From Adineta ricciae (lineage: Eukaryota > Rotifera > Eurotatoria > Adinetida > Adinetidae): a stretch of DNA of 64,000 nt. Of this stretch, positions 856 through 59,822 are shown piece after piece; the first letter of the stretch is position 1; each line of letters starts with the position of its first letter. The stretch lies in contig CAJNOJ010000020.1 of the NCBI GenBank assembly GCA_905250025.1, positions 248,001 through 312,000 of the forward strand, in the 5' to 3' direction. Made by a program: the position numbers and the translations under genes. The notes below the pieces were generated by a model. That model worked only from the letters and a program-made list of their open reading frames with translations, was not told the DNA's origin and searched no databases.

Positions 856-3800
856 TTAACACCAACGTTCAGGAAAAGTACGAATCTCTTTGATAATTCC
901 TGTTCCTAATGATTTCCATTGGTCGATTATTTGAACATAATCGATATTAGGATGACCATTGCTTGTCGTTTTCGATGGTTTCCATAGTACACAAACCATG
1001 AGACCACCGAATTCATCATGAAAGAATTCCGCTTGTTCATTATAGGCGGCCTAGATGAAATGTATTTCAGAATCAAATCCGTTCTTTCCTTCTGCGCATC
1101 TTACTCGTAATTCGGTAACAAACAACTGTGCTGGATCATAATCAACAACAGATAACAATTTATTCTGTTGATTATTCACATCGGATCCTTTCGTGCGCGT
1201 TGTATATGTTACTTCTGTTGATACATGATCGATAGCTTGATAGGCACGTGGACATTGAAGTGGATCCAACATAATGATGACATCATACGAAGTGAGACTT
1301 GGTCGAAATAGAAACTAAACAAACTTCATTGATAGAGAGAATTGTTCGTCAGGAAGTCCAACGTACTTTAATCGATTCACTATTATTTGTTTCCAGATGA
1401 TTCAATGCTTCCTTGGCTAGTTGTATGACACGTTTCATGACTGGAACGCTTGGTTTCGTACTCTCGTGAAATGCTACGGATGGCATTATGCACAGAGCCG
1501 GTAGAGATGATCGTTCCGTTTTGAATTGTGCTTGCATCTGAAACACTTGATCTTCTACAAAATCGTAAACGAGTTATGAGTAAAAATTCACTGTTTCTAT
1601 CGTCATTACTTGTCAATTCGTGGTTAAAATTAATAATTAACGGTTCATTGATCCAATCAAAATCACGAAGTAGACGAAGAACACGACTAAAACCGGTTAG
1701 CATTGATCTAAATACGCGGAAGCATTGTAAATTTTTCCACCGAATTATTCCATACATACTTTGGTGGTTCGAACGGAGCTGAATGAAGAAAAACATAACA
1801 GCAAATTAAGTCGGCATTGATGCTTTCAAAATGGTGTAGAAGCAGTTGAGATGAAAGCCATCGTTTAAACAAACGTGATACTAATTGATAATGAGCAAAT
1901 TGTTGACTAACACTAAACAGTTAACATTGTTAATTGAAAATATCGTCAAAGTCGCTCTCACCCATAGATAGCTGCATGAATCTTCGGTAAATATTCTGTA
2001 TCAAATCTCAATTTCTTCGATAAATCCGTTTTCTTTATTGTTCGTGCCAGACCATCCTTTTTTCCCGCTGCACTTTCGATCAAATAGATCTCTTTATGGT
2101 ACGATATAACTAATCGATAGATGTAATGATTTTTTTCAATATAAACACAATCGGTCGTTGCCCGACAGGTCAAATGAAATTGTTGCTGTAACAGTTTTGC
2201 TAGTTGAATGTAGTAGAGTATCTTCGAGTGTTTGATACGTTCCAAAGTTTCAAAATCGCGATCATTTGAACTGGTCTTTTCCAACTGACATAAAATAGCT
2301 AATGATGGACTGAACGGTGGTGCATACCGTGAGGTTGAACGAGGAATTAATGCCTGAGTAGTATGTTCAATCGAACGAATTTTATGCAAATCAGTTAGAA
2401 ATACGGATGGTAAAGGTGGAAAGACATTTGTATAACGAAATGTTTCGTCAACACCAACGATATTATTGATTTTCAGAGGTAGTTCATTGTTTAACGTGCG
2501 AATTTGTTTGGATAGTTCAACGAATTCACGACAAAGATAGATATGTTGTTCATCACCTGTCCCATACGATGGAAAAAGACGAGCTGGAATTGACAGTAGA
2601 CTTGATGGAAGTTGATCGTTGTAAACAAATTCAATATGAGTTGGAGATATACCAGCTTGTCTGAAAGAAGAATATATTAATTAAACGAAATCAGAAAATG
2701 AAAACGAAACTTACATTTCCAAAAGATAACGAGTTGCGTCCATCCAGATCAATCGTTTATCTTTCGCAGTTTCGACATTCCAAACAACAGACTCAAGGAT
2801 TGAACCATCAGGAAAACGACGCAGTTCGGATCGTTCGGTCCATAGTTTTCGAAATGTTGCGGCCTGGAAAAGAAACGCAAATTCATTTGTTTCAAATTCG
2901 AACAGATCTTTAGTTATCCTTATCTAATCTTGCCGACTCAGATAACACGATATGTTGACTTTAAAGGTCTCTGACGTCGATACGACAATGATAACGATTG
3001 AAATCGAGTAATATCTTACCTCTTTCGTTTCATTCTCTGGTCCTTTGAGTACCGACAAATCGTATTGATCAGAGAAAATCACTCCGAACGTGATCGATGT
3101 TCTTGCCGGTACCGGTTCATTGATTGGCCACTAAAAAGAAAACAAATACACAATAATCTGTACTACAACTAGCAGGATAGGTTTTTTTTTGTCGACAACT
3201 AATCGAATTGATCATGAATCAAAGATTGACAAAAAATACGGTTCCGCGTATAAAATCAATAAGCGAGTATCTTTCAGTAGGCAAATATTCGTCGATGATG
3301 CTCTTGTTTGCACCATTGAGACTATATTCCCATTCTTGAAATCGGTTAAATCAATGACTTTCAAGCATTGAAGGTAACTGTTCAGGTAAAGAAACTTTTC
3401 TTTGTAAATCGATGGTTCTATTCGTATACAGTTGTCATTCAATCCTGATGCGGGATCCAAATAGAGTTGTAATTGTATATCCAATGTGTATCGATTGAAA
3501 TTTCTTAGACAAATCTCTTCGTTTTTGTTCCTGTAAACCACTAGTAAATTGTTTTGATCACATGTGATATCCAGTAGAATTTCGTCTGAATTGAATAAAT
3601 CAACCTTTCGATTAATTTTCAAATTCAACTTCTTTTCATCAAACAAATATTCGACAAGATCATGATCACCAACAATTCCATACATTATCGACTTGTAAAA
3701 AGCAATACGATTCAATGGTAAACTATCCGATACGCATCCTAAATCATTTACAGACAGTGTCTTTCGATCGAGCATGTACAAGTGATTGAAATCGTTTGTT

Positions 3801-6767
3801 GAAATGAAGTAATGATCAGTGTCCTGATTGTATGCTATATCGCATAGTTGCGTACTGAAATGCAATGGCCATTGAAGGTAGAGACGTTGAAGACAATGGT
3901 ATTTGTTGTCTTCGTACTGAAGAAAAACAAGAATATTTAATTTGGAATTGTACAGAAGAACTTCATTAGATTTCGTCGAACTCGCTAGGCAATGATATTT
4001 CATTTCACATTGGCTGAACATGATTGTTGAATGGCCCATTTGACACGAGTTTTCATCTGATAATAACGACTTATACAAGCAAACTAATGTCTTATTATCA
4101 TTCTTGCTCAACGATGGACTACGTAGGTATAAATCGGGAAGGAACAGAGAATCGATTTCGTATCCAGTTCGTTTTCCATCGAAATATCTAGTGATTAGAA
4201 TGGAAAGATTTGATGCGTTCTCCAGAGAGTGATCATGAGATTGTATCGGAGTACTCGATATTGATTTGAGTGTGCATGGTTGCTTTGTTACTGGTTGAAA
4301 ATTCACACCTTTTCGGGGTGGCAAACAAGCAGAGATGATGACTGGTAGTTTCTTTTGAATCATTTCTTTCCAAGGGTAAATCGCGGTTTTGCTTGTTAAC
4401 TCTCGAAAGTGTGCGTAGTCTAATTTGATGTTTTCATTCAATTGGTTTGTTGTGAAAGAATTTATGCCCAAATGTAGACGTTTTTCAAATGAATTCAATT
4501 GCGAGTAAACGCGTAAATATTCCAGTTGTTCAGGAAAATCACCTGGCAGATTGGCCGTTTGCGTTTGTTCGCGTATTGTTAAATACTGTCTGTTGATTTC
4601 CATGTAATATTTTTGATAAAGTTCTCGAATTTCGTTCGACTTCTGTTGAATGAAGTTCTCGATTTGTTCGATAGTTTGTGTCTTCCATCGATGAAGTTGT
4701 TCATCGAGATATAGCATATACTTTTGATTACGCGCATGTATCGTCGATGTATGGAATTGTTCGTGATAGATTTTCGAAACTTTTTGGAATTGTATTAACA
4801 AATCCTCTTCCATTCGTCTAGTTCTCTTCTTCTTGTTCTTAGTCTCTCAGTTTACCGCACAAGTGTTCGTCTATGAAGAACAAATGAAAGATAAGAAACT
4901 TACGGTTTTTACTAGTGATGGTAAAGGGCAAAGTAAACTGATACGTTCTTTAAGACCATTTTCAAGGAGATGAAGAACTTGTTGGCAGAGAAGAAAATGC
5001 TTATTATTCAGATTATCCATTAATAGTTGATTTTTCGTTGATTTTCCTTCAAGAAGTTTATCATATTGATCAATAGAAGAGATCCTGTATGAGAAAGAAG
5101 AAAATGACCAAAGAATTTTACAGAGTTGGTGTACTTACTGAATAGTTGCGTCCATACTGTAGATTGGTTTCATCGATGTCATGAAAAGAGTTTGAAAATG
5201 ATCGATGACTGGATCATTGAACGAGTTCAAGGATATTCGTGCTTCGTATTGTAACTAAAATTGAAGATGTGTATGGAACTTCCAATCAAGTCGTCTTGTT
5301 CTTACTCGTTTGTAATTTGCTCGCGTTAATGTATGAAAAACATTGAGCAATCCAGACTGATCGGTCAAGACACAGTCGTCGTTGTTAAAGATATTTTCAG
5401 CAGGTTTTTCGTTTGATAATGAACGATTATCAATTGGTAGAAAGTTGTTTTCCACTTGAATGGAGAGAAAGAGAGAGAGGAAATTGAGATTTTTGTAATC
5501 AAGTTTCGATCTCAGCTTACTTAATGCCACTAGAACAATACGAAAAACTTGATAACTATTCATTTGTCGAGTGAGTTTATTCGTTTGTAGTAAATAAGCG
5601 AGTAGAAATGCTGACATTCCACCTTCAAACGAGCCGAAGTCCTAAACAGACGAAGGAAATTTCATTTTGATCTTCTACAGATATGTTCACTTTTTTACAT
5701 GGGATAATTGTCGTTGTTCAAGCCAGATTTTGAATAATTTCAATCCATTACATAATTCTTTCGACGAAGAAAAGATTTTCTTCAAATATTCCGATGTTTC
5801 TCGACAACGGCAATCGAACAGAATCGACGAATTGTAGTTCGGCGTCGGATAGAACGGTTCATTTTCTTCTTTTCCATCGCCAGCAAACCAATTCCAACGA
5901 AGATTACTCGATGTTGGTAAGAAGCGTTTTTCTTTGAAAGAGTTCTGCTCTGGTGCAAGTATTATTCGAATAGCAAATGTCGATGATTCTACACACGCAT
6001 AGAAAACAAAATCAGAGTCTGGAAGAAGAGATTTCTTACCTTTCGGTTTGACTAATAGAACAGCGTGATTGTTTGTTGTATCATTCAAATGTGCGAATTC
6101 TAATGAGTGCTTGAGTTTTTTTGCTAAATAGCACAGATAGATAGCTCGTTTTCCTATGTATTCATTATTGAGATAATCTCTTTTATGAATACATATACGC
6201 GGAATTTCCACCAGAAGATCGATGATAGTCGAGAGTTTATTCGATGATTTGACTATGAAACCATCGTATGTATAAGAACCAATCGACTCGATGACTGTTG
6301 GTGGAAAGAATTGAAATGACTTTTCCATTTTCGCATAGGATAATGGTATCTTAATATTGAATTTGTCTAACCATTCCGACATCTTTGAGAACTAAATACG
6401 AAGATATGAGAAAGAAAAAGCGCACGAATACGTTCGAATTTACTTCTCGAACTTTGCCCTGAGGAATCGATTTGAGTTCATTTGAAACTTCGTCAATAAA
6501 TTGATTGATTTCATGACGTTGACTTTCTTTTAATGTTACTTCATTCAGCAATGCACTGACCTTTAGTAAAAATTCAATGAAGAAACTTTTCCACGCCATC
6601 GATTTACATACTTTCATTTTAGTTACAGTTGAATGAAAAGTGATTTCGGATTCGAAATACGCCGTTTCAACATCTTGTTCTTCAGCATATTCAACTTTTT
6701 TCTTCTTCTTCTGTCCGTGTCCGTTGGTAAACGAAACACCATTGGATTTACGTTTTAGTACTTCCAT
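856..6767 (-). CDS. NOL6: Nucleolar protein 6 (NOL6/Nrap/Utp22), about 14 exons
   Basis: NOL6 is an RNA-associated protein of the small-subunit processome, needed for pre-rRNA processing in the nucleolus. I traced about 14 exons with matching splice phases, roughly 1,100 residues in total. Recognisable blocks in order: a basic KKKKK stretch near the N-terminus; the nucleotidyltransferase-like domain (FFPPTVIESIGSYTYDGF, KRAIYLCYLAKKL, PTPNYNSSILFD, KIWLEQRQLSH; 5700-6391); FEGGMSAFLLAYLLQTNKL (about 5570-5630); ERSELRRFPDGSILESVVW (2715-2863); LPLKINNIVGVDETFRYTNV (about 2450); and the C-terminal DEFGGLMVCVLWKPS (about 960-1010). The ATG at 6767 directly follows a TTCTTAG acceptor-like sequence, compatible with leader trans-splicing. 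The stop is at 856-858. All introns are short except 3132-4903, which contains another gene. No disruption seen. Confidence 0.92.
3212..4813 (-). CDS. Intron-nested coiled-coil/beta-propeller-like protein, unknown function
   Basis: An uninterrupted 533-codon frame lies inside the one large NOL6 intron (about 3132-4903), on the same strand. The flanking NOL6 exons join in phase without it (LVKT to WPINEP), so it is a separate gene and not a NOL6 exon. Residues 1-150 are rich in Q, E, R and K and look coiled-coil (RWKTQTIEQIENFIQQKSNE). Residues about 200-533 alternate short hydrophobic strands with loops (NSKLNILVFLQYED, HYFISTNDFNHLYMLDRKT, RLLILYAEPYFLSIFDS), which suggests an NHL- or WD-like propeller. 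TRIM-like proteins without RING or B-box have this layout and are numerous in bdelloids, but I see no zinc-binding cysteine pattern. The ATG at 4813 lies four bases after an AACTAG acceptor-like site. Function unknown; the gene call is good because of its length. Confidence 0.72.
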   Translation of the reverse strand: MEEDLLIQFQKVSKIYHEQFHTSTIHARNQKYMLYLDEQLHRWKTQTIEQIENFIQQKSNEIRELYQKYYMEINRQYLTIREQTQTANLPGDFPEQLEYLRVYSQLNSFEKRLHLGINSFTTNQLNENIKLDYAHFRELTSKTAIYPWKEMIQKKLPVIISACLPPRKGVNFQPVTKQPCTLKSISSTPIQSHDHSLENASNLSILITRYFDGKRTGYEIDSLFLPDLYLRSPSLSKNDNKTLVCLYKSLLSDENSCQMGHSTIMFSQCEMKYHCLASSTKSNEVLLYNSKLNILVFLQYEDNKYHCLQRLYLQWPLHFSTQLCDIAYNQDTDHYFISTNDFNHLYMLDRKTLSVNDLGCVSDSLPLNRIAFYKSIMYGIVGDHDLVEYLFDEKKLNLKINRKVDLFNSDEILLDITCDQNNLLVVYRNKNEEICLRNFNRYTLDIQLQLYLDPASGLNDNCIRIEPSIYKEKFLYLNSYLQCLKVIDLTDFKNGNIVSMVQTRASSTNICLLKDTRLLILYAEPYFLSIFDS

Positions 6768-25292: not shown

Positions 25293-25300
25293 TATATAAA
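25293..25300 (+). promoter_or_regulatory. TATA box of the neuropeptide gene
   Basis: The sequence CAGTATATAAATC contains a good TATA box about 200 bases upstream of the neuropeptide ATG at 25493. Transcription would start near 25325 and give a leader of about 170 bases. TATA-type core promoters are typical of strongly tissue-specific genes. Inferred from sequence only. Confidence 0.5.
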
Positions 25301-25492
25301 TCATCTTAATCATTTTATGTAACACTCGTTATCTTATTCTTTGTTTCTATCGAACTGTTTTTCAAACAGCAATTGGACGTACGTAATATTCATTCATCGG
25401 AATTCGTATTTATAAATACAAATGTTCGATTCTGCATTTCAGATTTGAGCTTCATAGATAGATATACATATACTAACTTCGAATCAATCAGC

Positions 25493-26101
25493 ATGGTTTC
25501 CAATTCGATCATGTATACGCTTCTCCTCACTATGGGTAAGTAAAGTTCATAAGTCATCCGAGAAAAACACCTCCGTAAAGACATTCGCGAAGAAGTGAAT
25601 GATAAATGATTTACAATTAGTTCTGTTAATCATCTAAAACATTTTCTCCGTTTAGGTTTCCTTCTTTTTATGACTACCATACAAGCAACACCAATCCATA
25701 ATGGTATATCATCTATTGAGAAAGTTTTCGATGAAGAATCCGAAGATTCAAGTTTATCCATGGACAAACGCACTTTTAGTAACAGTGATATTCCTGATGG
25801 TTACGTTGGCATCATGTTAGGCAAACGTGGAACCGACACACGAGCAGTTCGCCTTCCCGCCGAAGCTGTTCTTCTTGGCAAACGACGACTACCATACGAA
25901 GCCGTCCTTTTGGGCAAACGAGATTTGCCAAACGAAGCTGTTCTTTTAGGAAAACGCCGCATACCCCATGAAGCCGTACTTTTAGGTAAACGTGATTTAC
26001 CAAACGAAGCGATTCTTTTAGGTAGACGTGATTTACCTAACGAAGCTATCCTTTTGGGAAAACGTGATTTACCAAACGAAGGTATTCTTCTTGGCAAATA
26101 A
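25493..26101 (+). CDS. Multicopy amidated neuropeptide precursor (LPxEAVLL-amide type), apparently new
   Basis: Two exons (25493-25535 and 25656-26101) encode 162 residues and splice in frame. The first 29 residues are a signal peptide (MVSNSIMYTLLLTMGFLLFM, ending TTIQA). An acidic spacer follows, ending SMDKR. Next come TFSNSDIPDGYVGIML-GKR, a GTDTRAV spacer, and seven exact 12-codon units: RLPAEAVLL, RLPYEAVLL, DLPNEAVLL, RIPHEAVLL, DLPNEAILL twice and DLPNEGILL. Each is followed by GKR, GRR or, in the last, GK and stop. Glycine plus dibasic is the usual signal for convertase cleavage, carboxypeptidase trimming and C-terminal amidation, so -LL-amide peptides are predicted to be released from neurons or endocrine cells. 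The terminal GK can still be trimmed and amidated. I do not recognise the family among described lophotrochozoan peptides. Confidence 0.88.
25850..26101 (+). repeat. Seven tandem 36-bp coding units
   Basis: Seven units of exactly 36 bases (12 codons) run from 25850 to 26101, with the stop as the last codon. Units differ mostly at third positions while the encoded LP-x-E-x-x-LLG core is kept. This points to purifying selection on the peptide after expansion of the array. It is part of the neuropeptide gene and not a satellite. Confidence 0.85.
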
Positions 26102-28489
26102 CAAGCAAGAGCAAATCGCAATTTTTATTGACATTTTATGTTAAAACAGTACATATTCATAATACAGTGCGTTTCGTTTTGAATGTACTTTGAAAATCAA
26201 ACAGAGATACTTGAAAATAAAACATCATACAAAACACTAGATATTCGTCTAAGTCCAAAATTCTTTTTGATTCATTGAGAAACGTGTGAATGAAGAACGT
26301 TCTCAAGTCATGCCTTTCTGATGACGCCCGAAAACTGAAAAAAAAACAACAAAATTGTTCTTACGAAATGTTCGCCCTTTCAAAAGCAAACGTACAATAC
26401 TTTTACTTCAGTGTGTAAGTGTGACGTTGTAGCAAAAAGAAAGAAGCATAGAGTTTTCTTCTGCAAAAGACGATGGCGCTAGTCATCATTGTTCGCGTTT
26501 CGTGCAAGATGGCACTATTGTATAACACGAGAAAAGAAAAGATTACAACCTCTTTCGGTATGCACAGTTACCAGTTGAATAATGGCCATGCATAGAAGCA
26601 TCTGTTACATATTTTTCTCATTAAATTGCACAAATCAAACATTCTCTTTTCTCTTTGCTCGCTTAATATTATTTCTGGCTATTTGTTTTACAAATAAAAT
26701 AAGAACTCTCATTTTTTTTTCTTCTTCTTCTTACTTCTTTAGGTTACGTGTCTTTTCTGTAGGTGCCGACGTACCTGGGTATTTTATTAAAAGACTAATT
26801 AATTAAATTATCTCGACTATGAAAATTTGATTGCTAAGATCGTTTTGTCAAAGAACATGTGCGTTTCGTTCCGTCTGATACATTGATCAATTTGATTTCG
26901 GAACAATAAAAAAAAATCCGGTATGTGACATATTTACTTGTTGATTTATGAAGAATTGAGAGAATTATATATGACCTTGTCAGCAGAACAAAGTCTCGAA
27001 AATATGTTTTGTCATTTGACTATTATTAGTAGTATACATGTTCATCTTTCATCGAACGAAAAACAAAATCATCAGCGTATTATTGACTCAATCCGATGAC
27101 GACTTTGAGATGTTAGTACACTAATCTTTGATTATTTTTTGTTTCTTTTTTTTTATCGTTCGCTGACGTTAGTTAACCGACCCCATGCGCGTTTATTGAA
27201 TTGGCACGTTAAAATCGTTGAGTAAGCGATGATCGATGATGTCTCCACCATCACTCCTACTGTTGAGTTACGTCAACGTATCTGTTCATAGTGATGACGT
27301 CTTTCTTTCTTTCGTTTTGTTTAGTTACTAAAGGCTAAGGAAAAAAAAAATCAACGATTAGAACATATTGATCCTCAACGTTGAGAAACAAAGGAGGGAG
27401 AGCGAGTAAATGAAGGTAGGGAATAACAGACTGTATTTTGATAGAATCAAGTTCAATAATGTACTTTTCCTTTTGCTTAAGATATTTAGGGAAAAAAGAA
27501 GAAGAAAAGTGTTTTTCTTTTCTGTTTATTTTTGTTACTATACTTGAAAATAATCCTCTTCAGAATCCATACTTCATTTCTCGGAAGACATTTCAAAATA
27601 ATGTTATTGATCAAAAATAATCGTATGATATAGATGCAGACATTCGCTGATGATTTATTCGCAATAGTTCCAGAAGGTCGCGGAAACTTTAAAATCGAGA
27701 TAGTTTTTCTTTTTCTTTCGAAATAATAAGAAAATGTGTTTCGTCATCATCAACTTGAAGTAGAAACCGGACGATGGAAGACTTAGATGAGCATCGTCTA
27801 TTGTTTGTGGGTGGTTTCTATTCATCGAACGGTTCTTTTTTCTTCATTTACTAAATTTGAAATCTGCGAAAAAGAGAAAGAGAAGAAGAAGAAGAAGAGA
27901 AGGCGATCCTGTTCTTTCATTCGTCGCGTTTGCTTATGTTTTTTAATCACATTTTGCACATACAATTCTCACCTCTGTCATACACTCGGGCGTCTTTTTC
28001 TATGTGAAAAGTTTTCGTAAATATGCATAGATTTTTCTTGCTCAATACACATGTAAACGAAAAGAAACACAGGCAGTAAAAGACAACAAAAGTAAATGAT
28101 TGACCTTGCTTTAAATCTGACGCATTTTTCTGTTTGTTTTTATCAAAATTTAGCCGGTATTGAACAAGTATGTAAAAAAATAAGAAGAGAATCAACGAGA
28201 AGAAAAACTTTTCTCTACGTCGCAGAAAAGAAAGGAAGAAAAATTCTTTGATGCCCTTTTCATAGTCGTGAAATAAAAGAAAGAAAACACACTATAGAGT
28301 TTAGAAACACGTCGGCGAACGTTACTTGATGCGTCAGGAAAAGAATGCTAGAGAATTTATTTTCTGGTACGTTAAGCAAAAGAAAGAAACTAGAAGAGAA
28401 AAATCATGATGGAGTTTGCATTCTATCCTATTCTATTTCCATATGATGTATTTGAAAGTTTGTAAAATGACATTAGTGTTATTGATTGC
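26102..28489. other. Gene-poor region between neuropeptide gene and DYRK2
   Basis: AATAAA at 26217-26222 is the likely neuropeptide poly(A) signal. The rest is AT-rich with purine-rich stretches (for example about 27868-27900) and contains no gene, tRNA or repeat I can support. It probably contains the DYRK2 promoter and leader. Confidence 0.5.
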
Positions 28490-53150: not shown

Positions 53151-55151
53151 TTAAATATAATCAAATAGTAAATTTCGTGCACGCAGTCTCTTATCATTTT
53201 GTACCCGTTCGATTTCTTTGTTTGTAAGCAGTACTTCTGGGTGAGTTTTGAACGTTCGACGATACGCGCGAATCAGCGTATGGATTGCAGTACCCAGCTC
53301 TTGCAATGCTTCTCTTCCTTTTTTGGGATTCGATGCCAAACAATGTGCCAGACCAATACGACCTTTACCTATATCTGGATGATTGTGCGGTAAACATTGA
53401 TTTTGTATTGAGAGAACTTCTCGAAAAATCTTTTCTGCTTCACTGAAATTATCTTTAGCGAAATGAACATAGCCAATCGCGATCAGTGATTTAGCGACAT
53501 CGGGATGAATCTCGGGTACGCTTCTGTGTAAAATATCACGTGCAGAAGTGAAATATTTCAATGCCTCTTCAGTCTTTTGAGTGACAATAAACTCAATGAA
53601 TCCAAGAGCAATAGCTGCGCGAGCTCCGACGATATCATCGTTCGCGTCCGAATAGATTTTCGTTAGTAGAAGTTTCCCTTTGCCAATATTATCACTGGAT
53701 GTTAGAAGATGAACATAAGCACGCAACAAATTGGCTGAATGAGAATCCTCCGGCAATTGTTGCAGATAGTCAGAGGCTTTTTGACAAAGATTTTGACGTA
53801 GGGTAACTTCAGCTAATTCTTCGTAATGGGTGGTATTTTCGAACCATTTTTCTGCTTGGGTATATAAACCTTTATAGATGAGGATTCTTCCAAATGCTCG
53901 ATGAGTATCATCTAGATTCCTCAAAGACTGCGAATAGTTTTCGTAGAGATCCTGTGTTGCTTGATTTCGATTCAATGTTGGAGATAAACTCAGACCGACT
54001 AGCCAACACGAATCATTTCCGTCCATGAGTTCAACTTTAATTATTCGATGTCGTGACCCACACCAAAATAGAACGCGATCTTTGTCCAATTCACCGTAGG
54101 GAATAGTAAATTGAGTATCTTTGTCGATATTGATTTCGAAGATAACTCTGTGCTTCACATGATCATCGATTTTTACATCGACAAATTTGGCAGCGTCGTG
54201 CATATTTGTATAAGCTAGAAGAATTTCATTGCATATGATAAATTCACCTATACGTTGTTTGATCTTGTCAAGTTCACCTGTCCTCACCCATGTACCATAA
54301 TAAACGGTCCGTGTGGATGAGTTTGCATTGAATTGGTTATGTTTAACAGTCAATTGTTCATAAAAAATTCGAATAAACCAACGTAATGCCCACAACTCAA
54401 TCAAATGAGTTGCATTTAAATGAACATAGCATAGATCGGGTTTATACCAGTTTTCAAGCGGTATATCCACTTGAAAATGGTCATCTACCTCTCCAACGCT
54501 CGCAGTTGTTGCATGATTTTGACAGTACTTTTTAAAGTCGTCAACGCCATCGTCATCATTAGCTGGCTTTTTAACTAGTAGTTGAAGTGCAAGCTGATCG
54601 TGAAGGTTAGCGCCAGTTGTGAAGCGTTCTGTTAGTTTGGAAACAAATTCTTCTCGAGGTGGCTCTGGTTCTTGCTCTTGAGGTGACTCAACTTCCATCG
54701 TTGGATGTTCATGCTGAGGTTGATGGTGGGCTGGTTTTTCAGGCGGCTTCAAATCTTTCTGTATACACTCAAATATTTTACCAAAATCCGACTCGACGCA
54801 CCGAACTTTATCACACAATTGTGCCCATTGATTATGTCTGACGGTGTCCATGCAATAGACATAAATAGATTTTATTTGATTCAATGGTTGGAGACGATTT
54901 GGCACATACATTTGTCCGTATTTCCCTGAAACGAGCATCGATATACATGCTGGTTCACCATCCGCCGATTCAACCAATTCCAGACATTCCAGAGGCTGGT
55001 TAAAGCACAAGACTTGTTTGAAAAGAGAAAGAAATATTCCCTTTGCGTCTGGATCTTGAAGAGCATTATCATCCAACCAAACGAGAGCTAGTCCGTTTTG
55101 GTTAGATGCTTGTTTGTCTGTTGTTTTATAGGTTGTTGACGCTTCTGCCAT
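53151..55151 (-). CDS. ADP-ribosyltransferase-like/TPR protein, probably catalytically dead
   Basis: A single-exon 666-residue protein. Residues about 20-140 (LALVWLDDNALQD, SMLVSGKYGQMYVPNRL, IKSIYVYCMDTVRHNQWAQL) match the N-terminal module of the ART-TPR proteins that are abundant in bdelloids. Residues about 230-400 correspond to the arginine-specific mono-ADP-ribosyltransferase fold (VYYGTWVRTGE, HRVIFEINIDKD, LDKDRVLFWCGSRHRIIKVE). The R-S-E triad is not complete: the usual YRG is YYG, the STS loop reads LLAYTN, and the ExE position before LF is DKDR. Residues about 430-620 are kinesin-light-chain-type TPRs (EIHPDVAKSLIAIGYVHFAK, EAEKIFREVLSIQ, HNHPDIGKGRIGLAHCL). A binding or scaffold role with lost enzyme activity is my inference. 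One long exon in an intron-dense region suggests retroposition or a foreign origin of the family. Confidence 0.75.
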   Translation of the reverse strand: MAEASTTYKTTDKQASNQNGLALVWLDDNALQDPDAKGIFLSLFKQVLCFNQPLECLELVESADGEPACISMLVSGKYGQMYVPNRLQPLNQIKSIYVYCMDTVRHNQWAQLCDKVRCVESDFGKIFECIQKDLKPPEKPAHHQPQHEHPTMEVESPQEQEPEPPREEFVSKLTERFTTGANLHDQLALQLLVKKPANDDDGVDDFKKYCQNHATTASVGEVDDHFQVDIPLENWYKPDLCYVHLNATHLIELWALRWFIRIFYEQLTVKHNQFNANSSTRTVYYGTWVRTGELDKIKQRIGEFIICNEILLAYTNMHDAAKFVDVKIDDHVKHRVIFEINIDKDTQFTIPYGELDKDRVLFWCGSRHRIIKVELMDGNDSCWLVGLSLSPTLNRNQATQDLYENYSQSLRNLDDTHRAFGRILIYKGLYTQAEKWFENTTHYEELAEVTLRQNLCQKASDYLQQLPEDSHSANLLRAYVHLLTSSDNIGKGKLLLTKIYSDANDDIVGARAAIALGFIEFIVTQKTEEALKYFTSARDILHRSVPEIHPDVAKSLIAIGYVHFAKDNFSEAEKIFREVLSIQNQCLPHNHPDIGKGRIGLAHCLASNPKKGREALQELGTAIHTLIRAYRRTFKTHPEVLLTNKEIERVQNDKRLRARNLLFDYI

Positions 55152-55752
55152 CTAATCCTGACGATTTTCCAACTTGGTTTAAAGTAAAGCGACAAAATAT
55201 GACTTGACTGTTTTTTCTCTTCTTCCTTGTCGTAGCGTTGTTGTTGTTTTTCGTCGGATAGAAGGTATCGTCTTTTTTACTCCTTTTCTTTCTTTTCTTC
55301 ATCTTATTTTTCACCATGAAACCTTTCTCCAGAAAAACAAACTCCACAAAAGAAAAAGGAATATGATTAGTTTTTTCAAGCAGCATATGTAAGAAAAACC
55401 TAGGCGATTTCGACCAAAAACGTTGATAAGACAATAGCTTCATTCGCTGTTCATTCACGCATAAATCTGACTAAATGCTTCATATCCGTCTCAGTCTATA
55501 ATGAGAACGCTACTCACATAGGTCCTCTTCGAAAGAAACAGCACTGCTTTCATTGCTTGTCTATGTTTTGTCGTTCTGTACTAGTCACTGTTTATTGCAA
55601 CATCATATTATATGATGTGCAGAAAGTGCGAAGACGAACGTTCGAGTATGTGAATACACGTGTACCTGTACGCATATATATGTGCACGTGTGCCTTTTAA
55701 TAGATGACAATTTAGTATTTAATATTGTTTCAATTTCGTGTGATAGAAAAAA
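55152..55752. other. Divergent region between ART-TPR gene and first P450
   Basis: Divergent upstream region for both genes. It contains CACGTG-type E-boxes near 55656-55690 in a purine/pyrimidine-alternating stretch (GTACCTGTACGCATATATAT). A TGTGATAG acceptor-like site sits just before the P450 ATG. No gene seen. Confidence 0.45.
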
Positions 55753-57551
55753 ATGTTCTTAACATTCATTCTTATTTCGGTTGTCGTATGTTTGACTGTT
55801 CTGTATCTATGGACAACAAACAATGCTTACGATTATTTCAAACGTCATGGTATTCCGGGACCGCCACATCGGTTCTTCTTTGGACATTACAAAGAATTTT
55901 GGGGAACAAAATCGTTTTCAATCATGATTCAGCAGTGGACAAAGCAGTACGGGTCTGTTTATGGTTTATTCATGGGTACGAAGCCGATGTATGTTGTATC
56001 GGACGTCGATTTCATTCAGGAAGTTTACATTAAACAATTTTCATCGTTCCACACGCGACTCGTACCGAGTATTTTACGTGTACGCACCGACAGTAATATC
56101 CATCTATTTCGTGCTACTGGAGACTCATGGCGTCGTCAACGACATATTATTAATCCGACATTTTCATCTGGAAAATTGAAATTGATGTCCCCATTAGTAG
56201 ATGGTTGCATCGATGCCCTGCTGACAAAGTTATCTGAAGAGGTAACGAATGAGCATACAGAAATAAATATTTATGAAATGTACAAGAGATTGACTATGGA
56301 TGTAATTTGTAAGCATTGAAATTATTTATATCGACACAATAACTTTTATTTTCTTCGGATTAAGGTCGTTGTGCATTTGGCATTGATACAGATATGCAAA
56401 ATGATCCAAACAATATGTATCTACAAAAATCAGCTGAGGTTTTCAAATCAGACGTCGAACAAATGGTACTTTTTAAGATATGTAGTGTGATGCCCATCTT
56501 CGCGAAGCCTATACATGATGTTATATTTGGCATTCAACGTATCCAGAAAGCATTTACCCATTCGATTCCGATTCTGAGCAATTTTGAACCACATCCAGCT
56601 CAATGGCTGCTCCAACGTCTAGACGAAGTACTTCAACTTCGCTATCAGTCTATGTCAAATCCACAAAAGCGCATTGACTTATTACAACTGATGATCGATG
56701 CAGCACGTGACACTAAGACTTTGGTATGTATATAGATCCATTTGACTATTATCTGACGTCAATTATACTTTTCCGAATATCGAAATAATATTTATCAATG
56801 GTACTCGCCTTCTTTTAGAATGAAACAGAAGGACATGGCGAATTAAAAGTGTTGAAACTCAGTGAAATCATTCCTAACATTTTCTTATTCATGATTGCTG
56901 GTTATGAAACAACATCGACTGCTCTGGCTTATTCGACCTATGTACTTGCTACACATCCTGACATTCAACGACAGCTTTTCAGTGAGATCGATCAGCATCG
57001 CATCGACCACAATGATCACGACGCTGTTTATGATACAGCAATGAATCTGACTTATCTCGATTTATTTGTCCGTGAAGTACTTCGTATGTATCCTATAACC
57101 AGTAAAGCGATGGCACGTGAATGTAACACAACCACTACAGTTTGCGGTCACACTATCGAAGAAGGTTCGTTTATTTTGAAACCTTTTCCCTGCCCTCACC
57201 CACCCTATCTGATCTATGCTTCGTCTTCTTTCAGGTAGTGTAATTCAGCCTGATGTTTTCACCATTCACTACAATTCTGAGCTGTGGGGCCCAGAAGATC
57301 CAAACATCTTCTATCCAGAAAGACATGCCGAGAAACGACATCCGGCTGCATGGATACCATTCGGTATTGGCCCGAGAATTTGTATTGGTATGCGATTTGC
57401 ACTGATGGAACTGAAGATGTGTTTAATTCGACTATTGAGAGAATATGAGATCGTGGCCAGTGATCGAATCGAAGAAGGATTTCGACGAGAGGAAAGACTG
57501 GTCATTCAACCAGATGCGATATTTGTCAAATTACAAAAACGTTCTTCTTAA
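55753..57551 (+). CDS. Cytochrome P450, CYP3-clan-like, first tandem copy
   Basis: A haem monooxygenase anchored in the ER by its N-terminal helix ([20 protein letters not shown]). Exons: 55753-56308, about 56366-56723, 56819-57165 and 57236-57551, in consistent phases. Motifs: proline-rich hinge [17 protein letters not shown]; helix [20 protein letters not shown]-helix [10 protein letters not shown] with the oxygen-binding Thr; K-helix EVLR; PERF-like YPER; and haem loop [10 protein letters not shown] with the cysteine ligand. The CYP3 clan (3A/thromboxane-synthase-like) fits best, suggesting oxidation of lipids or foreign compounds. The substrate is unknown. The second copy starts about 520 bases downstream. 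Parts of the last two exons and the intron between them are almost identical to that copy, while the rest differs strongly. Confidence 0.9.
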
Positions 57552-58068
57552 AATTTTTTAACTTAATGTATACTACGTTCTCATAAAAAAATAGTTTTGT
57601 TTTCGTCCATGCATACTGTTTCTATTCACTGCAATATATAATTACATTTCTAGATCACCCGTCGACATCATATATCATTTATCTTTCGATACTTTCATGA
57701 AAAGAAATTTCGATAGAAAATAATCCCTTGATATACTTATTTTCTTCGTTCGAAGGTGATAGTACTAAACATGCACTAAACGACCAGACGAAGTAATTCA
57801 TTTGGACGTCCTTTTCACTTTTCCCATTTCTAGGTCAGACATTCTTTCATTTAAAACGAAGAAGAAGAAAATAGCGACTTCACGTGAATCCATCGCCTAT
57901 ACAAACCAAGAATTTATTCTACTTGTCGATCTTATCGGTAATTCGTTTACCATCGTTCTATATATTAAAATTCATGTCCTTCAAGTGCAGTGCAGTGCAC
58001 TTTGTTGACTGATACGAAATTAGACGCTTGTGGTCCCCGGCAGTTATACCCATCCTAACTATTTCAGC
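57552..58068. other. Spacer between the two P450 genes
   Basis: 3'UTR of the first P450 and promoter of the second. AT-rich; no gene or repeat recognised. Confidence 0.5.
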
Positions 58069-59822
58069 ATGTTATGTACTATTGTCCTCTTAACCTGCTT
58101 TCTGTGTTTAATTATTACATACCTCTGGATGACAAATCATTCCTATGGTTATTTCAAACGTCATGGCATTCCGACACCGCCACATCGTTTCTTCTTCGGA
58201 CATTATAAAGACCTATGGGCAACGAAATCATTTTCAATTACACTGCAACAGTGGACGAAAAAGTACGGATCTATTTACGGTCTATTTCTGGGAACGAAGC
58301 CGATGTACGTTGTATCGAATGTTGATTTTCTTCAAGAGATTTATATCAAACAGTTTTCATCATTTCATTCACGACACCTGCCGATTATCCTACGACTTCA
58401 AACTGGCCATAAAGTTCATCTTTTCAGTGCTATCGGCGCAAGATGGCGACGACAACGACATGTGATTAATCCAACATTTACAGCTGGGAAAATGAAATTA
58501 ATGTCTTCATTAGTATCTGAATGCATAGAAACAATGACGCAGAAGCTCTTTTCTGTCATTCAAAGTCAACCAATCGAATTGAATATCTATCAGTTGTACA
58601 AACGAATGACCATGGACGTCATATGTATGTGAGAATCCCTGATTGAAGTGTGACGAACTTCTTGTATTTAGGCCGCTGCGCATTTGGTATTGATACTGAC
58701 ATGCAAAATGATACGGAGAACATATATTTAAAGAAATCCGCTGGAGCATTTGAGTTAGACATCGAGCAATTGTTGATCGTGAAACTGACGAATTTATTGC
58801 CAATTTTTAGTCAGCCTTTCCGTTATTTTTATCTTTTTCAAATTGGTATTCGCCGTGTATTGATAAGATTGATTCCATTTTTGAAGGATTACATTGAAGA
58901 AACGCCAGGCTCATGGCTGACTAATCGTGTCAGAGATGTGGTTAACCTTCGAAAACAATCACCAACGAAACGTATCGATCTGTTACAATTGATGATTGAT
59001 GCTTCCACCGATGGAGACGTCAAAGTAGGCCAAATCTACTTCATATGAGATACAGTTCGATATCTCGCATTCTTTCCTGTCTATAGGATAATGTTGATGA
59101 ACAATTGATGCCAAAAGTTTTACATGCGGACGAAGTTATAAGCAACGTTTTTCTCTTTATGATTGCTGGCTATGAAACAACATCGACTGCTTTGGCCTAC
59201 TCGACCTATGTCCTCGCAACAAAGCCGCTTATTCAACAACGACTACGTAAAGAGATCGATCAGATCGATTGGAAAGATGACAACAAAGAAGCTACCTATG
59301 ATCTAGCTGTTAATCTTCCATATCTTGATTTATTTATACGTGAAGTACTTCGCATGTATCCCGTTGGAACTAAAGGACTGACGCGTGAATGTAACACAAC
59401 CACTACAGTTTGCGATCACACTATCGAAGAAGGTTCGTTTATTTTGAAACCTTTTCCCTGCCCTCACCCACTCTATCTGATCTGTTCTTCGTCTTCTTTC
59501 AGGTAGTGTAATTCAGCCTGATGTTTTCACCATTCACTACGATCCTGAACTGTGGGGCCCAGAAGATCCAAACATCTTCTATCCAGAAAGACATGCCGAA
59601 AAACGACATCCGGCTGCATGGATGCCGTTTGGAATTGGTCCACGAAGTTGTATAGGAATACGGTTTGCACTGATGGAACTGAAGATGTGTTTAATTCGAC
59701 TATTGAGAGAATATGAGATCTTGGCCAGTGATCGACTCGAAGAAGGATTTCGACGAGAGGAAAGACTGGTCATTCAACCAGATGCGATATACATTAAACT
59801 GAAAAAATGTTCTACTGCATGA
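58069..59822 (+). CDS. Cytochrome P450, CYP3-clan-like, second tandem copy
   Basis: The paralogue of the preceding gene has the same exon structure. N-terminal anchor MLCTIVLLTCFLCLIITYLW, hinge [17 protein letters not shown], helix C WRRQRHVINPTFTAGKMK, I-helix [11 protein letters not shown]-helix EVLR, YPER and haem loop FGIGPRSCIG are all present, so it should be active. The ATG at 58069 is used because the frame above it has only GTG. Substrate-recognition regions differ from the first copy, so specificity may have diverged. AATAAA at 59871-59876 is the probable poly(A) signal. The terminal exons carry two tracts nearly identical to the first copy at a constant offset of 2,268 bases, separated by a diverged patch covering the haem loop. 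Confidence 0.9.

Follow-up and report, generated by a model that had tools for sequence, protein, structure and literature searches.

The locus holds a gene of two coding exons on the forward strand, 25493–25535 and 25656–26101, whose spliced translation is a precursor of 162 residues. It lies in a 64-kb window, the window being the whole stretch of DNA that was analysed. Both the start codon (ATG at 25493) and the TAA stop that ends at 26101 are read from the sequence, and the coordinates and the repeat consensus given in an earlier note on this DNA are correct. The features of the locus, all on the forward strand, are the following.

25293–25299 (+): TATATAA box-like element, a possible core promoter, about 200 bp 5' of the ATG (motif match only)
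25493–25535 (+): coding exon 1, with the ATG and the first half of the signal peptide (MVSNSIMYTLLLTMG, last codon split), from the spliced translation
25536–25655 (+): predicted intron of 120 bases, phase 1, GTAAGT...TTTTCTCCGTTTAG (TTTAG acceptor), read from the sequence
25656–26101 (+): coding exon 2, with the remainder of the signal peptide, the propeptide, eight peptide units and the stop, from the spliced translation
25688–25771 (+): acidic propeptide TPIHNGISSIEKVFDEESEDSSLSMDKR, ending in the first dibasic site (DKR, 25763–25771), from translation, with the leader cut placed by eye and hydropathy
25772–25828 (+): peptide 1, TFSNSDIPDGYVGIML followed by G (amide donor) and KR, a longer, diverged member of the repeat family, from translation and alignment
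25829–25885 (+): peptide 2, GTDTRAV plus unit 1 (RLPAEAVLL), followed by G and KR, from translation
25886–25921 (+): unit 2, RLPYEAVLL-GKR, with a KRR junction, product possibly LPYEAVLL-amide, from translation
25922–25957 (+): unit 3, DLPNEAVLL-GKR, from translation
25958–25993 (+): unit 4, RIPHEAVLL-GKR, with a KRR junction, product possibly IPHEAVLL-amide, from translation
25994–26029 (+): unit 5, DLPNEAILL-GRR, from translation
26030–26065 (+): unit 6, DLPNEAILL-GKR, from translation
26066–26101 (+): unit 7, DLPNEGILL-GK-stop, from translation
26216–26221 (+): AATAAA poly(A) signal, 115 bp 3' of the stop codon (motif match)

The 120-base intron would be required because the leader is obtained only by splicing: in the unspliced sequence, the longest ATG frame begins at 25670 and has no leader. 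Once the intron is removed, the predicted signal peptide shows a hydrophobic N-terminus (Kyte-Doolittle mean of 2.48 at residues 10–20), so that the signal peptide claimed in the earlier note is borne out as a hydrophobic leader, given this splicing. The signal cleavage after ...TIQA was placed by eye and by hydropathy, and the splice sites were likewise placed without a dedicated predictor. In the 162-residue product, the leader MVSNSIMYTLLLTMGFLLFMTTIQA (delimited by eye) is followed by the acidic propeptide, whose terminal DKR, located by counting along the sequence, is the cleavage site that had been claimed, and then by the units TFSNSDIPDGYVGIMLGKR, GTDTRAVRLPAEAVLLGKR, RLPYEAVLLGKR, DLPNEAVLLGKR, RIPHEAVLLGKR, DLPNEAILLGRR, DLPNEAILLGKR and DLPNEGILLGK-stop. 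Disorder is the structural state expected of such a precursor of short peptides. About 50 bases 5' of the start codon, an acceptor-like site, TGCATTTCAG, was seen by eye at 25433–25442 (+), and it could be the end of an intron in the 5' UTR or an acceptor for a trans-spliced leader.

For the surroundings of the gene, Pfam was run on 30 of the 189 open frames of at least 70 codons in the window, in addition to the precursor. The matches include a nuclear-receptor zinc finger, an Nrap domain, NAMPT, an aquaporin-type channel, a protein kinase, F-box domains, a cytochrome P450 and LRR domains, with a troponin domain match just under the Pfam cut-off; at 0.001, nine of the 30 frames remained unmatched. 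The zinc finger and the near-threshold troponin match make the window look like animal DNA, nuclear receptors and troponin being indicators of an animal source. These 30 frames yielded no rhodopsin-type receptor, a result that is uninformative about the genome. Rfam and tRNA scans of the 64 kb gave no hits in either case. Two tandem and closely similar cytochrome P450-like genes lie at 55716–59819 (+), where similar frames recur twice and the one frame submitted to Pfam, 56819–57235, matches p450. On the reverse strand, a stop-free frame of 666 codons (53154–55151) carries C-terminal TPR repeats and an N-terminal part with no Pfam match, and may resemble a protein type associated with bdelloid rotifers. 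A further open frame of 544 codons, 3215–4846 (-), had no Pfam match at 0.001.

Peptide units and processing sites

The seven 36-base units stand in register from 25850 to 26101 and follow the consensus [DR][LI]P-x-E-[AG]-[VI]-LL-G-[KR]R, the last one ending in GK-stop. They had been described as exact, which holds for their length and spacing and does not hold for their DNA, since Tandem Repeats Finder reports a period of 36 with 75% matches. Residues 1 (D or R) and 4 (A, Y, N or H) vary among the units, while the C-terminal half is constant, a distribution which suggests that a receptor would read the amidated C-terminus.

The units differ in how their N-termini would be released. Between the GKR at 25823–25828 and unit 1 there is no dibasic site, and, barring cleavage at a single Arg, unit 1 would therefore be released as the 16-mer GTDTRAVRLPAEAVLL-amide. 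Units 2 and 4, on the other hand, start with an Arg placed directly after KR, forming KRR, and their products may thus be the 8-mers LPYEAVLL and IPHEAVLL.

The first peptide had been set apart as a divergent one ending in IMLGKR, and it does end in this way, at 25828. It is nevertheless better read as a longer member of the same family, whose segment DIPDGYVGIML aligns with DLPN--EGILL. When peptide 1 is scored against the other six distinct cores, the gapped local score was reached by 7 of 500 shuffles and the ungapped right-anchored score, the weaker of the two, by 26 of 500. Read through this alignment, the precursor probably comprises a single core in one long and seven short versions.

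Searches for relatives and candidate families

The query in the Pfam, PDB and contig searches was the stretch of 143 residues that begins at the internal ATG (25670), which lacks the first part of the leader. Pfam, searched at E up to 10, returned a single irrelevant match below threshold, with HMMER filters that drop most weak hits, and the PDB sequence search returned three matches, all irrelevant (E 0.11–0.45). Viral and prokaryotic contigs gave 3 and 31 pattern matches, respectively, with none confirmed, an absence that is expected and uninformative for an animal gene. Within the 64-kb window, no second copy was detected by blastn (E up to 0.01) or tblastn (E up to 1). Open-access text searched for the peptide strings held nothing relevant, the sole match, a paper on a plant species, being plainly due to chance; no rotifer neuropeptidome was among the open-access matches listed, as judged by titles and the openings of abstracts.

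The peptides were also compared, right-anchored and with BLOSUM62, with 66 published peptides in 32 groups, a comparison to which nine-residue peptides give little power. Unit 1 was entered as RLPAEAVLL, leaving GTDTRAV aside. The panel is a selection of printed peptides, is partial for groups such as FCAP1, LFRFamide, LRNFVamide, opioid, PKYMDT and Wx3Yamide, and omits NPF, NKY, calcitonin/DH31, achatin and the newly named scallop peptides, as well as ELH, tachykinin, CCAP and pedal peptides; its molluscan members come from the portions available of PMC8735849 and PMC5996578. No convincing relative was found in this panel, all groups but one being reached by at least 120 of 500 shuffles. The one below that number, the echinoderm MGFTGNTGILL-amide (1 of 500), was rejected, because this peptide had been picked for its ending through a text search for LLamide and its score rests largely on the shared GILL.

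It is unlikely that the peptides belong to a strongly diverged but known bilaterian family, such as allatostatin A/buccalin, LASGLVamide, myomodulin or cerebrin/PDF, masked by their short length. This explanation can draw on the amidated aliphatic end expected here, as in several lophotrochozoan families in the material available, and on the cerebrin/PDF-like NAGTIDSLYNLPDLFAA-amide, in which LP is likewise followed by a short amidated tail; myomodulin, in addition, ranks fourth among the 32 panel groups, though 169 of 500 shuffles reach its score. The endings nonetheless differ family by family. Allatostatin A/buccalin peptides end in FGL-amide or GxL-amide, whereas the short copies end in VLL or ILL and peptide 1 in GIML, and in none of the peptides is Gly the residue next to the final Leu or two positions ahead of it. 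The myomodulin ending is LR[LM]-amide (with the variants VRL, LRV and VRM), and here the penultimate residue is never Arg. The C-terminal GL[VI] of LASGLVamide is absent from these peptides, and the single long amidated peptide of cerebrin/PDF, with 17 residues in scallop, contrasts with a multicopy precursor made mostly of 9-mers. Pfam includes a PDF model, which was absent from the matches at E up to 10, where filters may drop weak hits. The irrelevance of the sole Pfam match and the outcome of the panel also speak against a known family.

Somewhat less probable still is that the gene belongs with the "FCAP-related" multicopy precursors (FCAP, feeding circuit-activating peptide) of Rotaria tardigrada, R. 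socialis and R. sordida (De Oliveira et al. 2019, PMC6425005), which the earlier note had overlooked. According to the text available from that study, the copy number of these precursors is eight in two of the species (R. sordida and R. socialis) and nine in the third (R. tardigrada), close to the eight found here, and their peptides have a fixed length of 11 residues. The repeated peptide has nine residues here (10 with the Gly), fewer than are described for the Rotaria peptides, and identity with the Rotaria gene is unlikely. Molluscan FCAPs carry LDxLGG...HG or, in scallop FCAP2, [LIM]DR[ILVM]GxGL[IV], and are listed without an amide in the portions seen of PMC8735849 and PMC5996578; these motifs are absent from all seven distinct peptides, and the three FCAP groups lie outside the 12 of 32 panel groups that the fewest shuffles reached. 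Other rotifer precursors in the material available include FMRFamide and RYamide (PMC6425005) and one APGW/AKH precursor in Brachionus plicatilis (PMC10730642), all of which, going by their names, end differently from the peptides described here.

The earlier description of the family as unrecognised is therefore compatible with the searches, in that Pfam, PDB sequences, open-access text and a small peptide panel held no relevant match, but it had left the Rotaria precursors out of account. A multicopy amidated precursor is in itself of a well-known kind; it is the family of the peptide core that is possibly new, and it is plausible that these peptides form a family so far undescribed. A more specific proposal, for which the chances seem about even, is that the gene founds a family restricted to a single lineage of animals, perhaps rotifers or Gnathifera, with the core [DR]-[LI]-P-x(2,4)-[AG]-[VI]-[LM]-L-amide and its own receptor. 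Peptide 1 would then keep the longer core, and the nine-residue copies would have arisen by the loss of two residues and tandem duplication.

Proposed processing and role, and the substitution pattern of the repeats

Peptide biosynthesis comprises a signal peptide, cleavage by convertases, trimming by carboxypeptidase, amidation at Gly by peptidylglycine alpha-amidating monooxygenase (PAM), release from dense-core vesicles and binding to a GPCR. A course of this kind can be proposed for the precursor, with every step from splicing, secretion, cleavage and amidation to neuronal expression and the receptor being predicted from the sequence. The signal peptide would take the precursor into the secretory pathway, where prohormone convertases would cleave behind KR, RR and KRR, the basic residues would be trimmed by a carboxypeptidase, and PAM would convert the exposed Gly to a C-terminal amide. 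For the last peptide, which ends in GK-stop, carboxypeptidase and PAM alone would suffice to form the C-terminus. The yield would be about eight peptides of seven kinds, ending in E-[AG]-[VI]-LL-NH2 or, for peptide 1, in GIML-NH2, and these, once released from dense-core vesicles, would act on a peptide receptor, probably a GPCR; the action through a receptor not yet paired that the earlier note proposed is likewise a prediction. The computed [M+H]+ is 982.5567 both for DLPNEAVLL-amide and for DLPNEGILL-amide, two products that only fragment spectra would tell apart, and 996.5724 for DLPNEAILL-amide. The figure of about eight amidated peptides given in the earlier note thus agrees with the eight predicted here, as in all eight the Gly is followed by a dibasic site (GKR or GRR) or forms part of GK-stop.

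The same processing could serve peptides with a role outside the nervous system, such as a secreted product that acts in defence or mating or is associated with eggs or a gland, and this is considered improbable, to the same degree as a place among the Rotaria precursors. Multicopy precursors with repeated peptides and Gly-dibasic processing do occur outside neurons and nervous systems as well. Typical amidated antimicrobial peptides, however, are cationic and amphipathic, whereas the peptides predicted here are short (8–16 residues) and those of the DLPNE type have two acidic and no basic residues. Moreover, a conserved core that recurs at the C-terminus while the N-termini vary is usual in receptor ligands.

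The processing signature itself stands out within the window. Among open frames of at least 30 codons, the precursor frame has eight matches to Gly followed by two basic residues or by GK at the end (the latter accounting for one of the eight), and the runner-up has two Gly-dibasic matches. In 100 first-order Markov simulations of 64 kb, scored, unlike the real frames, without the GK-end pattern, the top frame had one match in 85 runs and two in the other 15. Since a tandem repeat copies any motif that it contains, the substitution pattern is stronger evidence than this count.

Pooled over the 21 pairs of the seven units, pS was 0.620 (117.5/189.7) and pN 0.167 (91.5/548.3), values which, like the shuffle figures, are descriptive and carry no formal probability, given that pairs among seven units are not independent. 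The resulting pN/pS of 0.27 in the sense frame is the lowest of the six frames, the other five giving 0.63, 7.02, 0.88, 0.50 and 1.73. Third codon positions hold 120 of the 225 pairwise differences, a number reached in 620 of 100000 column shuffles. At the processing sites, the codons for Gly and Arg vary at their third positions, while the Gly itself is kept in 7/7 units and the dibasic site in all except the one ending in GK-stop. Because divergence at synonymous sites is far greater than at sites that change the protein, purifying selection seems to have maintained the peptides together with their Gly-dibasic sites, and the repeat copies look old. That the open frame is a tandem repeat with no coding role, or that the coding lies on the opposite strand, is highly implausible: the antisense frame of 107 codons at 25804–26124 (-) is likewise open and repetitive, but is most likely a by-product, as its pN/pS of 0.50 exceeds that of the sense frame, where the variation is concentrated at third positions and where a signal-peptide-like leader, dibasic sites and a stop exactly after GK are found.

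The multicopy amidated-peptide precursor of the earlier note is thus well supported by the anatomy of the precursor and by the substitution pattern. With the gene layout, the processing sites, the repeat register and the pattern of purifying selection across copies all observed, the locus is very probably an intact gene of an animal, coding for a multicopy amidated precursor of the neuropeptide or peptide-hormone type.

The neuropeptides of rotifers and other Gnathifera have been little surveyed. In the text available from Thiel et al. 2021 (PMC8557429), an in-depth survey of gnathiferan neuropeptides is called the next frontier, a study of three Rotaria species is said to have identified very few precursors, and several peptide families private to single lineages are listed in other phyla (section 5). 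If gnathiferan, the present precursor supplies defined peptides for synthesis, which would serve receptor pairing and antibody staining. As surveys do yield lineage-specific families (PMC8557429), the finding is useful rather than startling.

The precursor beside known peptide systems

The closest parallels in overall design, within the sources as far as they were available, are the multicopy precursors of lophotrochozoans (FMRFamide, APGWamide, FxRIamide, myomodulin and buccalin/allatostatin A), which also combine a signal peptide with many similar amidated copies and a conserved C-terminus. They differ in the core, which ends in RFamide, GWamide, RIamide, RLamide or GxLamide in those families and in E[AG][VI]LL-amide or GIML-amide here. 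The many copies per precursor are shared with FCAP, including the Rotaria "FCAP-related" precursors in the part available of PMC6425005, although the molluscan FCAPs have an LDxLGG or [LIM]DR[ILVM]GxGL[IV] core and are listed as non-amidated in the material available, and neither core is present here.

Short peptides with amidated aliphatic C-termini are likewise known from LASGLVamide of bivalves and aplacophorans, with several per precursor in scallop; its core, as printed in the portions available, is LA[SN]GL[VI], whereas the peptides described here have a P-x-E and do not end in GL[VI]. The LL-amide ending, finally, is shared with SLGSELL-amide from mantis (an EFLamide orthologue), MGFTGNTGILL-amide from sea cucumber (an L-type-like SALMFamide) and FVGLL-amide from zebrafish (NKBb). 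Their upstream residues differ, and no LPxE appears in the printed part of any of the three. Among the matches listed, the printed LL-amide peptides are variants within the EFLamide, SALMFamide and tachykinin families.
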